Notes under the pieces: model-generated
Seen by the model: only the letters and a program-made list of their open reading frames with translations
Databases searched by the model: none
What the model was told of the DNA's origin: nothing
In this document: one piece after another, positions 12,595-28,826 of the stretch
Position numbering within the stretch: position 1 is the stretch's first letter
Layout: every line of letters starts with the position of its first letter
Assembly (NCBI GenBank): GCA_025201805.1
Contig: MU619358.1
Coordinates: 1-42,206, forward strand
DNA from: Parasitella parasitica
Lineage: Eukaryota > Mucoromycota > Mucoromycetes > Mucorales > Mucoraceae
DNA: 42,206 nt
Direction: 5' to 3'
Program-made: the position numbers and the translations under genes

Positions 12595-13054
12595 NNNNNN
12601 NNNNNNNNNNNNNNNNNNNNNNNNNNNNNNNNNNNNNNNNNNNNNNNNNNNNNNNNNNNNNNNNNNNNNNNNNNNNNNNNNNNNNNNNNNNNNNNNNNNN
12701 NNNNNNNNNNNNNNNNNNNNNNNNNNNNNNNNNNNNNNNNNNNNNNNNNNNNNNNNNNNNNNNNNNNNNNNNNNNNNNNNNNNNNNNNNNNNNNNNNNNN
12801 NNNNNNNNNNNNNNNNNNNNNNNNNNNNNNNNNNNNNNNNNNNNNNNNNNNNNNNNNNNNNNNNNNNNNNNNNNNNNNNNNNNNNNNNNNNNNNNNNNNN
12901 NNNNNNNNNNNNNNNNNNNNNNNNNNNNNNNNNNNNNNNNNNNNNNNNNNNNNNNNNNNNNNNNNNNNNNNNNNNNNNNNNNNNNNNNNNNNNNNNNNNN
13001 NNNNNNNNNNNNNNNNNNNNNNNNNNNNNNNNNNNNNNNNNNNNNNNNNNNNNN
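12595..13054. other. Assembly gap (460 N)
   Basis: Unbroken run of unknown bases. Translations across it have no meaning. The exact true length is unknown. Confidence 0.99.
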
Positions 13055-25135: not shown

Positions 25136-25537
25136 AAAAAAAATTCCACTTGTCTCAATCTCAAATTTAAAAATAAATCGTTTTGGACCAAAATTCTGAA
25201 AAAAAGGAAAAGCAGACAGATCCATCATATAATCATTTGCATGGCCTTAAATGATAATATATGCAATCTCTACAAGCTATTTTTCATATTATGCATTCAA
25301 TAGATATAGGGGTAGGAAATCCCTCCTTTGGCAGATTTGAACCTGTCACTACAAGAAACAAACATATTTGTGGGATCGAATGCTAGGTTTCAATTGATAT
25401 ATAATTAGATTATTCTTACACAAAATCCAATAGTTATTGGCGCGCAATTCAATTAAATTTCCACCATGGCTCGCAACAAGTCAGTAATGGCATAATATTG
25501 ACGCGTGTTATATGTGTATAATGGTTTCATACATTAA
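25136..25537. other. Spacer between two nuclease remnants
   Basis: No gene. Left flank of the inverted-repeat element, ending in the TAA target duplication at 25535-25537. A GGTTCAAATC-like stretch near 25338 (minus strand) resembles a tRNA T-arm but does not extend into a tRNA. Confidence 0.4.
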
Positions 25538-25558
25538 GAGCATCTCCAACGGAGGTGC
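25538..25558. repeat. Left terminal inverted repeat
   Basis: 21 bp, preceded by TAA at 25535-25537. One mismatch to the right TIR at position 18 (G versus A). Internally palindromic: GCATCTCC, 3-nt loop, GGAGGTGC. Confidence 0.85.
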
Positions 25559-25698
25559 TAATTTTAAAAGAAAATTGGTGAGAGGGTGATACTTTCTTTT
25601 TTTTTTGGACAATTTTACTCACCTTTAATGGTGTATAGGATAAACCGAATACCCATGGTGTATCAAAGAGTAATATCAATGACACACAATGCTTGCAA

Positions 25699-26660
25699 TT
25701 ATTCTTTTGATTCAGAACGCTGGAATGGTGAAAGACGAGCGTCGTTGTTTCTTGCTGCATGTAAAAATATGTTAAGGATGTTTTTTGCAGCCACTATATC
25801 GCGATTTCAAATAATATTACAAGCGGTTTCTTGACACTGTAATACAGAACGTACTCTTCGCTTTGCTGATCGTTGCACAACGTTTTCAACATTTCTTTTT
25901 TTGCAGTTGTTGCAGACTTGACTGGTGAGGTATTCGTCTACCATTTGGACTGTAACACCACAATTTTCTTTACATTTTTGAAGAGCTTTTATGATAGTCT
26001 TTTTAGGTCCAGAACTTTTGCCTCTCATGGTAGGTGAAAACCTTCCATCTCCATAGGCAATGATGGTTTTATTTGCCTTCACTGATCCATCAAGTGGTGG
26101 AGGGCGAGAGTAAGAATTGTTGTTTCTCGTTGTTGTCTTCACATTGGTAAACACACCCGTACGATATTTGATGCTATCATGAGTAAACATCTTGACTATT
26201 TCGCTGAAAGCTTTTTGCTTCTTTCTATAACATCTAAACTTTAATTTTGAAGACCTATTCCATTTGGTTAACACATTTTTAAAATATGTATAAGAGTTTG
26301 CTACACTTACCTAAGGCCTCTGTTATAAAATTCATACATTATATCGTATGATTCAATACGCTTTATGCAAGCAATCAAGAATTTTGAAACTTCTCTGGTT
26401 TTTAATGAATCCAGTTCTGTTATCATTCTATGAGTGTTTGTGTGCTTCGCTTGATGAATCTTTCGAATGTGAGCTGCATCATTAAACCCACACAAGTGAT
26501 AATACTCCTTTTGACCTAGTGATCTCACTCTACCAGCTTGGTCAACTATAGTAGGAACCGTGCTAATTCCAGGGTCTACCACCCACACTTGGCACCCATT
26601 GTCAATATCTGTTTTCAGGTCAGATGGCTTTACGGGAAGAGAGTCTTTCTTTTTTTTTTG
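25699..26660 (-). pseudogene. Fanzor-like (OMEGA/TnpB-related) nuclease, 5'-truncated, one internal stop
   Basis: Read leftward from an in-phase acceptor (TTACAG before 26660). The first exon, to 26311, contains VWVVDPGISTVPTIV (RuvC-I Asp in DPG). A 77-nt GT-AG intron (26310-26234) joins it to CYRKKQKAFSEIVKMF. Next come TIIAYGDGRFSPTMRG, then VQMVDEYLTSQVCNNCKKRN with the RuvC-II Glu and first zinc pair, and VLQCQETAC with the second pair. A TGA at 25809-25807 replaces the expected Trp, and the frame continues NRDIVAAKNILNIF (RuvC-III Asp) to a stop at 25699. About 290 residues remain, against roughly 500-700 for full-length Fanzors: the N-terminal REC/wedge half is missing. All three catalytic acids and the splice sites survive, so decay looks recent. 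Confidence 0.85.
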
Positions 26661-27148
26661 CTGTAATTATTGAGAAGAGAAAAGAAACTGAATAACCATC
26701 CGTGTAGATAGCATTCCTAATATAATTTGATAAGTTCTAAGGCATTACTAAATTAAAACTATATGAACTTGCTTAAAGATCTTCTTTCCATTGTATAAAG
26801 TTTAACTAACTATACAAACTTTATTAACATTTTCTAAAATGGCCAGCATTTCTGTCCTGAATGCTCATATTAATGTTAGAAGTGTGAGGTTTATAGTATG
26901 AGATATATAAATGTGGGTTGAATAAAAGTAGTGAGCACCAGCTCCTATTTTGAAAGTAGAACGACTTTGCATAAAGAAGAAAAGATAAGAGTAAAATAGT
27001 AAAAGAGAATACAATGGATTCAAGAGCCAAGGGAGTAATTCAAAGAGCTTCAGAGACAAAAAAGCAATGCAACAATAAGCAAGCAGAGACAATTACCAAA
27101 AAAGCAGACAAAACATTTCCGGGTTGAAAAAAAAAGGTGCTTTAAATG
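26661..27148. other. Element interior without recognisable coding
   Basis: About 490 bp between the RuvC half and the right TIR. The N-terminal half of the nuclease would be expected here but is not recognisable in any frame. A hydrophobic leftward frame (26824-27030) is low-complexity and not convincing. A non-coding guide RNA, usually encoded near the nuclease 3' end in TnpB elements, cannot be seen by eye. Confidence 0.4.
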
Positions 27149-27169
27149 GCATCTCCGTTGGAGATGCTC
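27149..27169. repeat. Right terminal inverted repeat
   Basis: 21 bp, followed by TAA at 27170-27172. Perfectly palindromic core: GCATCTCC, GTT loop, GGAGATGC. Confidence 0.85.
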
Positions 27170-27243
27170 TAATTGACTCAAAAAATAGATACGAACCCCG
27201 TTCCGTGGATGATTGCTATATCGCCCTATCAAAGTGCAAATGC

Positions 27244-27251
27244 TATAAATA
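27244..27251 (+). promoter_or_regulatory. TATA box of UAP1
   Basis: TATAAATA, 58 bp before the UAP1 ATG and 75 bp after the end of the inverted-repeat element. The insertion therefore leaves the core promoter intact but replaces the sequence directly upstream. Confidence 0.55.
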
Positions 27252-27308
27252 CTAGAAAACTTTTTCAATGATATATAATCATCTCTTTGTTTACAAACCC
27301 TCATTATC

Positions 27309-28826
27309 ATGACCATTGCTTCGCCATTACCTCTCTCTGATATCGAAATCAAAGCACTGAAAGCCCGTTTTGAAAATGCAGGCCAAGGGCATGTCTTCAA
27401 ATTTTTCAATGACATCTCTCAAGTGGAACAAATTGAATTTTTGAATCAAATCGTCAGCATTGATGTCGATAATTTGAACGCCATCTATGACAAAGCTATT
27501 GAGGGTGCTGCTGCTTCCTCAAATTGCCAGAAAAATGACTTGCAGCCTTTGTCTCAGGATGTGTTTGATTCTGTATTGAAACAAAATGCGTCTACGTTGA
27601 AGGAATGGGAGTTGACCGGTCTCGAGGCAATTGCTCAGGGAAAGGTAGCTGTTATACTAATGGCTGGTGGCCAAGGCACTCGTCTTGGTTCCTCAGCTCC
27701 CAAGGGCTGTTATGACATCAATTTGCCATCCGGCAAGACACTCTTCCAGTTACAAGCTGAGCGTATCTTGAAAGTGCAGCAGTTGGCTCACCAGCATCGT
27801 AGAGAGCAAGACCCTGCTGAAACCATCATCCCTTGGTACATCATGACCTCTGGCCCTACCAATAAGCCCACATTCGATTACTTCAAAGAGAACAGCTTTT
27901 TTGGTCTCAAGCAAGAGAATGTGGTCTTCTTTGAACAAGGAGTTCTTCCCTGTCTGACAATGGATGGTAAAATTATCCTGGAATCCAAGGGCAAGATTGC
28001 AGTTGCTCCTGACGGTAATGGTGGTATATACAAGGCTATCCAAGATAGAGGCGTTATTCAGTCATTAAAGGAACGTGGTATTGAGTACTCTCATTGCTAC
28101 TGTGTTGATAACTGCTTGGCCCGCGTTGCCGATCCTATTTTTATTGGTTACAGTATCTCAAAGGGCACTGACTGTGGTGTTAAGGTAGTTGGTAAGGCTG
28201 CACCAGAAGAACCTGTCGGCGTTGTCTGTGTCCGTAATGGCAAATATGGCGTTGTTGAGTACTCTGAAATCTCTGATGAAACAGCTCATGAACGCCATAT
28301 CGATGGTTCATTAAAGTACGGTGCTGCCAACATTGCCAACCACTTCTTTTCCACTGCATTCCTGGAACGCGTCCCATCTTTCCAAGGTGAACTGGAATAT
28401 CATATCGCCAAGAAGAAGATCAAGTACATTGATCTTGAAACAGGTGAGCAGATTACTCCCAAAGCCAATTCTGGGATGAAACTCGAATGTTTTGTATTCG
28501 ATGTCTTCCCCTATGCCCAAAATATGTCTGTTCTCGAAGTGGATCGCGTTGAAGAATTCTCTCCTTTGAAGAATGCTCCTGGCACTGGTGTCGACTGTCC
28601 TGAGACTTCTCGTCGCGATATCGTCTCTCAACATGTTCGCTTCATTAAAAAAGCCGGTGGCAAGGTTGCTGGTATTAATATGGAAGATTGTGAAAAGCTC
28701 TTGTTTGAGATTTCCCCATCTGTTTCGTATTCTGGTGAAGGTTTAGAACATATCGTCCGCGGAAAAACTGTCAGAGCCCCTGCTACTATAGAATCATTGC
28801 AAGACTTGATTCGTGCTATTTGCTAG
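27309..28826 (+). CDS. UAP1: UDP-N-acetylglucosamine pyrophosphorylase
   Basis: Makes UDP-GlcNAc from UTP and GlcNAc-1-phosphate, the precursor for chitin, N-glycans and GPI anchors. Cytosolic, 505 residues in one exon, close to human and yeast length. The uridylyltransferase signature is at about residues 117-133 (LMAGGQGTRLGSSAPKG). Further family blocks are PWYIMTSGPTNKPTFDYF, VVFFEQGVLPCLTMDGKI, APDGNGGIYKAI, CYCVDNCLARVADPIFIGY, VGVVCVRNGKYGVVEYSEI, and GMKLECFVFDVFPYA near the C-terminal third. It is the only long intronless gene here with a TATA box at a regular distance. Codon use is more regular (many TCC, GCC, AAG) than in its neighbours, which suggests high expression. The 3' flank has CT-rich and T-rich tracts. 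Confidence 0.97.
   Translation: MTIASPLPLSDIEIKALKARFENAGQGHVFKFFNDISQVEQIEFLNQIVSIDVDNLNAIYDKAIEGAAASSNCQKNDLQPLSQDVFDSVLKQNASTLKEWELTGLEAIAQGKVAVILMAGGQGTRLGSSAPKGCYDINLPSGKTLFQLQAERILKVQQLAHQHRREQDPAETIIPWYIMTSGPTNKPTFDYFKENSFFGLKQENVVFFEQGVLPCLTMDGKIILESKGKIAVAPDGNGGIYKAIQDRGVIQSLKERGIEYSHCYCVDNCLARVADPIFIGYSISKGTDCGVKVVGKAAPEEPVGVVCVRNGKYGVVEYSEISDETAHERHIDGSLKYGAANIANHFFSTAFLERVPSFQGELEYHIAKKKIKYIDLETGEQITPKANSGMKLECFVFDVFPYAQNMSVLEVDRVEEFSPLKNAPGTGVDCPETSRRDIVSQHVRFIKKAGGKVAGINMEDCEKLLFEISPSVSYSGEGLEHIVRGKTVRAPATIESLQDLIRAIC

Follow-up and report, generated by a model that had tools for sequence, protein, structure and literature searches.

Remnant of a putative Fanzor gene in a multicopy transposon family of Parasitella parasitica

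The window, i.e. the whole 42,206-nt stretch of Parasitella parasitica DNA analysed here (contig label C122 in the 30.7-Mb assembly), carries a 1632-bp transposon at 25538-27169 that bears part of a putative Fanzor gene. This copy is very probably a defective member of a multicopy family of cut-and-paste transposons, of which the long form would have carried a Fanzor1-type gene, and which underwent internal deletion, spread and decayed.

Ends, target sites and superfamily

The element is bounded by terminal inverted repeats of 21 bp, the left one on the plus strand (25538..25558) and the right one on the minus strand (27149..27169), which are identical at 20 of 21 positions. TAA lies directly outside both (25535..25537 and 27170..27172, plus strand). 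Repeats and duplication are thus as the preliminary description had given them. Each repeat is in addition self-complementary and can form a hairpin, which reads GAGCATCTCC-AAC-GGAGGTGC at the left end.

A whole-genome search for the ends had been proposed as a way of finding full-length relatives. The end pattern GAGCATCTCCAACRGAG, with at most one mismatch, occurs at 49 sites (28 forward, 21 reverse), and the reversed pattern used as a control occurs nowhere in the 30.7-Mb genome. This is far beyond chance. Exact hairpin sites number 24, against none in the control.

Flanking triplets were compared in 18 two-ended elements, made up of 14 Fanzor copies and four further elements (L061-L064). 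Identical TWA triplets stand on both sides of 11 of them (7 of the 14 Fanzor copies and all four of L061-L064). In four Fanzor copies (L009, L019, L025 and L030) the triplet is TAA at one border but TTA at the opposite one, and three elements show neither pattern. Triplet identity alone is a weak sign for the Fanzor copies, since a free middle base would match in half of the pairs by chance; the presence of TWA at both ends in 15 of the 18 elements is the stronger sign.

A TWA target duplication is typical of PIF/Harbinger transposons, and the window copy, flanked by TAA on both sides, has one. Typical Harbinger elements are described with 2- or 3-bp duplications (PMC3627910). The element had been introduced as non-autonomous and Harbinger-like. 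The first half of that label agrees with the paired ends, the TWA duplications and the lack of a visible transposase between them, but the name Harbinger is a best guess, taken from the duplications alone. The genome has three matches to the Harbinger transposase profile PF13359, and the stretches around them contain no pair of the element's ends at up to five mismatches; no transposase associated with these ends was found in this way, though a further copy may exist.

It is possible, though clearly the less probable reading, that the ends come from a different superfamily whose target duplications are short and AT-rich (TTAA, for instance). The four copies with mixed TAA and TTA would suit such an origin, and in two of them (L019 and L030) either border can be taken as TTAA; that no Harbinger transposase found carries these ends points the same way. 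Against it stand the identical TWA triplets of 11 of the 18 elements, including all four of L061-L064, whose flanks exclude a 4-bp TTAA duplication. PIF/Harbinger is therefore kept here as the best guess.

Organization of the gene remnant

Minus-strand frames read from stop to stop contain DPG, DEY, TSxxC-xx-C...C-xxxx-C and NRD in the order known from TnpB and Fanzor proteins, so that the claim of a leftward frame with these motifs is borne out. The exon 1 remnant (26311..26666, minus strand) holds the putative RuvC-I motif (DPG). Exon 2 (25699..26254, minus strand) holds RuvC-II (DEY), the C4 zinc ribbon and RuvC-III (NRD), and ends with the natural stop codon of the gene at 25699-25701 on the same strand. 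The two are separated by a probable 56-nt intron (26255..26310, minus strand; GTAAGT...AATAG). A working-looking intron of 77 nt, ending at 26234, had been proposed earlier, but it would excise a block, (S)SKLKF, that is protein-coding in relatives. The 56-nt intron probably reads better, because it preserves both this block and the frame.

From the Asp of DPG to the TS dipeptide, the spacing amounts to 197 residues with the 56-nt intron and to 190 residues with the 77-nt intron. The published Fanzor motif is D-X(125,275)-[TS][TS]XX-[C4 zinc finger]-X(5,50)-RD (PMC3627910). The window remnant agrees with it, its spacing lying within 125-275, and a premature TGA interrupts the part between zinc finger and NRD.

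This TGA (25807-25809, minus strand, inside exon 2) stands where relatives have W ahead of NRD or SRD. In the alignment of 32 loci, 21 of the 22 complete codons at this place are TGG and only the window has TGA (six loci are unaligned there, three are gapped and the alignment of L039 ends inside the codon). The reported replacement of a conserved Trp before the RuvC-III Asp by a single stop is thus correct, and the TGA is late, as it is found in the window copy only and the sisters that can be read have TGG.

Two further lesions precede RuvC-I. An upstream coding remnant (NLSNYIRNAIYTDGYSVSF...; 26620..26736, minus strand) lies in a different frame from the RuvC-I stretch at 26307-26666, and the copy L012 reads both stretches in one frame of 142 aa; the window copy therefore carries a frameshift. 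In addition, the N-terminal half of the gene is absent from it. The copy is accordingly not one stop away from being intact, as had been said of its RuvC half. Judged from its sequence, the window copy retains only part of a Fanzor gene and encodes no working full-length nuclease; with half of the protein gone, it would be unable to act as one.

Identity of the encoded protein

The most direct evidence comes from the profile PF07282 (Cas12f1-like TNB). A genome search that read through stops gave 41.8 bits at 25777-25977, against a cut-off of 26.3. The piece of the window protein before the stop, taken alone, scores 20.8 bits and is under that cut-off. A related exon of L056 (C25), which has no stop, reaches 28.3 bits. 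In the genome as a whole there are 36 matches to this profile, 32 of them above the cut-off. The relatives P0021 (Thamnidium) and P0020 (Rhizopus) carry the same domain in precomputed annotation.

The PDB was also searched with A3, a C-terminal profile that combines five sequences (parts of P0021 and P0020, exons from L056 and from L060, and the piece from the window). At E values up to 10 this profile gave four matches, led by the Guillardia Fanzor1 (1.1e-4) and the Spizellomyces Fanzor (0.0012); PpFz1, the solved Fanzor1 of the same species, is absent from the four. With P0021 alone as the query, the Guillardia Fanzor1 is matched at an E value of 0.018. All but one of the five sequences in A3 also match PHROG 506, which is named transposase. 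Other searches gave less: the whole-protein profile A1 met only unrelated PDB entries and no Fanzor, pairwise PDB searches with the window piece and with P0012 returned no Fanzor, and NCBIfam gave nothing for three window pieces.

The Fanzor-like nature of the gene, for which a search against Fanzor and TnpB profiles had been suggested, is thus supported by the PF07282 score and by the Guillardia and Spizellomyces Fanzors ranking first with A3. As for the subtype, the PDB entries that match best bear the name Fanzor1 or Fanzor, and the element does not resemble IS607; this would suit Fanzor1 rather than Fanzor2, as a matter of best matches and not of a tree.

More distant Fanzor-like loci are present on C25, C158, C64, C33, C77, C39, C12 and others, and several of the 36 PF07282 matches lie outside the window family. 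In PDB comparisons, C33 finds the Spizellomyces Fanzor at 8.8e-6, C77 finds LaTranC at 1.7e-4, and C64 reaches PpFz1 at E 0.56 only. C64, C33 and C77 were considered as the gene of PpFz1, and the PDB comparison identifies none of them as such.

To the right of the element lies a gene similar to UDP-sugar pyrophosphorylases (PF01704, 175.1 bits; window 27170-28826). As the right end of the element is about 140 bp upstream of its first in-frame Met, the insertion is in the likely promoter region of this gene.

Copies, shared deletions and decay

A DNA search of the genome with the element gave 49 matches, and 40 candidates were scored. All 31 stretches taken from the genome match the element, which makes at least 32 loci together with the window. 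Among the copies that have both ends, L016 is the longest, with 3655 bp and free of N. Aligned to it, the window copy runs from the left end to position 1226 and resumes at 2986. About 1.76 kb is thus missing, and TGTA is common to both sides of the junction (26792..26795 in the window). The sequence beyond the junction (26796..27148, minus strand) is what remains of the element's 5' part.

The same junction is found in L009, L010, L012 and L013, which form a class of five with the window. The 1-kb flanks of these copies show no mutual similarity (the left border of L010 being approximate), so the shortened form must have reached separate sites. Because its junction is common to four copies at unrelated sites, the N-terminal half was lost before the window copy inserted. 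Three further junctions are common to four, three and two copies, respectively, and the four classes comprise 14 of the 32 loci. The window copy has the characteristics of a non-autonomous deletion derivative: the ends of longer copies, an internal deletion and no transposase.

All parts of the element have diverged to about the same extent. Against the column majority, each of seven parts (ends, exons, the longer intron first proposed, and non-coding sequence) shows an identity of 0.965-0.981, and third codon positions show no excess of changes. Relative to the majority codon, pN/pS is 1.10 in exon 1 (113 versus 27 changes, with 10 stops) and 0.73 in exon 2 (203 versus 76 changes, 6 of the 203 being stops). 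After dispersal the copies decayed, and selection on the protein is not evident, although the value for exon 2 leaves room for weak past constraint.

The preliminary description had pictured a near-intact RuvC half, spoiled by one recent stop, in a non-autonomous Harbinger element whose nuclease might be intact in sister copies. The TGA restricted to the window, with TGG in 21 of the 22 complete codons, and the presence of DPG, DEY, the zinc ribbon and NRD agree with this. This reading is nevertheless very unlikely, given that the N-terminal half went with a junction common to five copies and that a frameshift lies ahead of RuvC-I. The whole of the missing region (1759 bases) is moreover present in only one of the 32 loci, L016, the others covering from 0 to 1000 of it, and L016 has broken frames, the longest of 236, 192 and 164 aa. 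Sisters without this stop do exist. Long runs of N interrupt seven of the 32 loci, and intact copies may be hidden there or among further loci. The shared deletion followed by dispersal and decay remains the preferred reading.

In several copies the stretch before the Fanzor end had seemed to hold exceptionally long frames, as if for mosaic proteins; these proved to be N runs read as open. In the window itself, 460 N at 12595-13054 may mark an assembly gap or withheld sequence. Inspection by eye also suggests a Tc1-like transposase frame within the Fanzor copy L036 (C2:169469-176920).

Short relatives and the mover

Three short elements of 625-637 bp (L062-L064) have the same ends and TAA on both sides. 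They have about 110 bp in common with the long copies at the right end (89-93% identity) and 24-44 bp at the left. Because so little is common at the left end, they lack the part in which a guide RNA may be sought (see below). L061 (C89) has the same ends too, and was tried as an autonomous partner because a DDE_3 frame (PF13358, 93.4 bits) lies inside it; it was ruled out, the ends enclosing a nested Tc1/mariner-type element (L061:613-2302) with the DDE_3 frame in two pieces. That the family is moved by a Tc1/mariner transposase of this kind is hardly credible, since the transposase gene of L061 belongs to a separate element nested there, which is flanked by TA and bounded by inverted repeats of 71 bp that are 99% complementary, and the part around this element matches L062-L064.

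Proposed history and candidate guide RNA

In the history that we propose, the long form would have carried the Fanzor1-type RNA-guided nuclease gene, the only cargo seen. In an ancestor, an internal deletion at 4 bp of microhomology removed the N-terminal half of the gene, as the junction common to several copies shows. The shortened element was carried to several unrelated TWA sites, presumably by a transposase acting in trans; the insertions themselves are observed. Afterwards the copies decayed under no detectable selection on the protein, apart from the weak constraint possible in exon 2.

The 3' non-coding end on the gene side (25538..25698, minus strand) is a candidate for the 3' part of a guide (omega/re) RNA. 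The last 100 nt of the left end fold with -19 kcal/mol (z -3.48), and none of 200 shuffles folds as well. Rfam gave no match above chance for this region, with two miRNA matches at chance level. Across the copies, conservation of the 3' non-coding part does not exceed that of the other parts of the element, a result that does not favour the view that they still maintain a guide RNA.

By analogy with the Fanzors studied so far, the guide RNA of the long form may have ended in the 3' hairpin end and run on into the flank. In insect-virus Fanzor1 elements, reRNAs extend about 15 nt past the target-site duplication, and the terminal inverted repeat and the duplication are predicted parts of the scaffold (PMC10711439). 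Each hairpin end here could be the last stem of such an RNA. The 3' side of the gene faces the left end, so the flank read on the gene strand would give TTA followed by the guide, which for the window copy would lie left of 25538. After excision, the rejoined site would again show TTA and the guide sequence. The nuclease of the long form, if it acts like the Fanzors studied, would then cut the empty site left by excision and so favour retention of the element.

One may go further and suppose that a Fanzor was captured by a TWA-duplicating transposon of the Harbinger type, that the self-complementary end served both as transposase site in DNA and as last stem of the guide RNA, and that defective copies at many sites supplied a nuclease in trans with guides from their own flanks. 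We regard this as rather improbable. Of the deletion copies mapped, 12 of 14 reach to within about 45 bp of the left (gene 3') end, so they could keep supplying guides.

Comparison with known Fanzor elements

Fanzor1 genes were described by Bao and Jurka in 2013 in fungal transposon families (SPu-1, ROr, PBl, MCi), including those of Mucorales (PMC3627910). Mucorales families that lack a transposase and have MuDR-like ends are reported there, as is an unclassified family with a Harbinger transposase (PMC3627910). The window family resembles these in that its Fanzor gene lies in a DNA transposon which has inverted ends and makes short duplications of its target. The lack of a transposase is likewise a trait of several of those families, and deletion derivatives are described in that paper for algal copies (PMC3627910). 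It differs in its duplications, which are of TA, 9 bp, 11-12 bp or 6 bp in the families described and of TWA here, and in its hairpin ends (PMC3627910). In comparison, MCi-5 encodes a Harbinger transposase and has no obvious inverted ends, whereas inverted ends are present here (PMC3627910).

Parasitella parasitica, a mycoparasite, is also the source of PpFz1, a Fanzor1 with a solved structure (PDB 9cf0), an FRI domain and an ATN TAM (PMC11423790). The window gene comes from the same species and is, judged by its best matches, probably a Fanzor1 too. Since PpFz1 is missing from the PDB matches of profile A3, the window family is another Fanzor family.

The SfAV element is non-autonomous and encodes only a Fanzor1, as here; its host is an insect virus and its reRNA was measured by sequencing, whereas the guide RNA of the window element is a fold prediction (PMC10711439). 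With PIF/Harbinger transposons the window element has the 3-bp TWA duplication in common, and it is set apart by its self-complementary ends and by the failure to find a transposase that goes with them.

No description of a Fanzor family with TWA duplications and hairpin ends was found in the literature covered, supplementary files and most subscription papers lying outside it. The window copy itself is dead. Shortened copies that lack half of the nuclease have still reached new sites, so spreading does not require the nuclease in cis, a point relevant to the role that Fanzors play for the transposons carrying them. Fanzor-bearing elements in Mucorales have been known since 2013; to these is added a family with TWA duplications and hairpin ends, in the species of the solved PpFz1.
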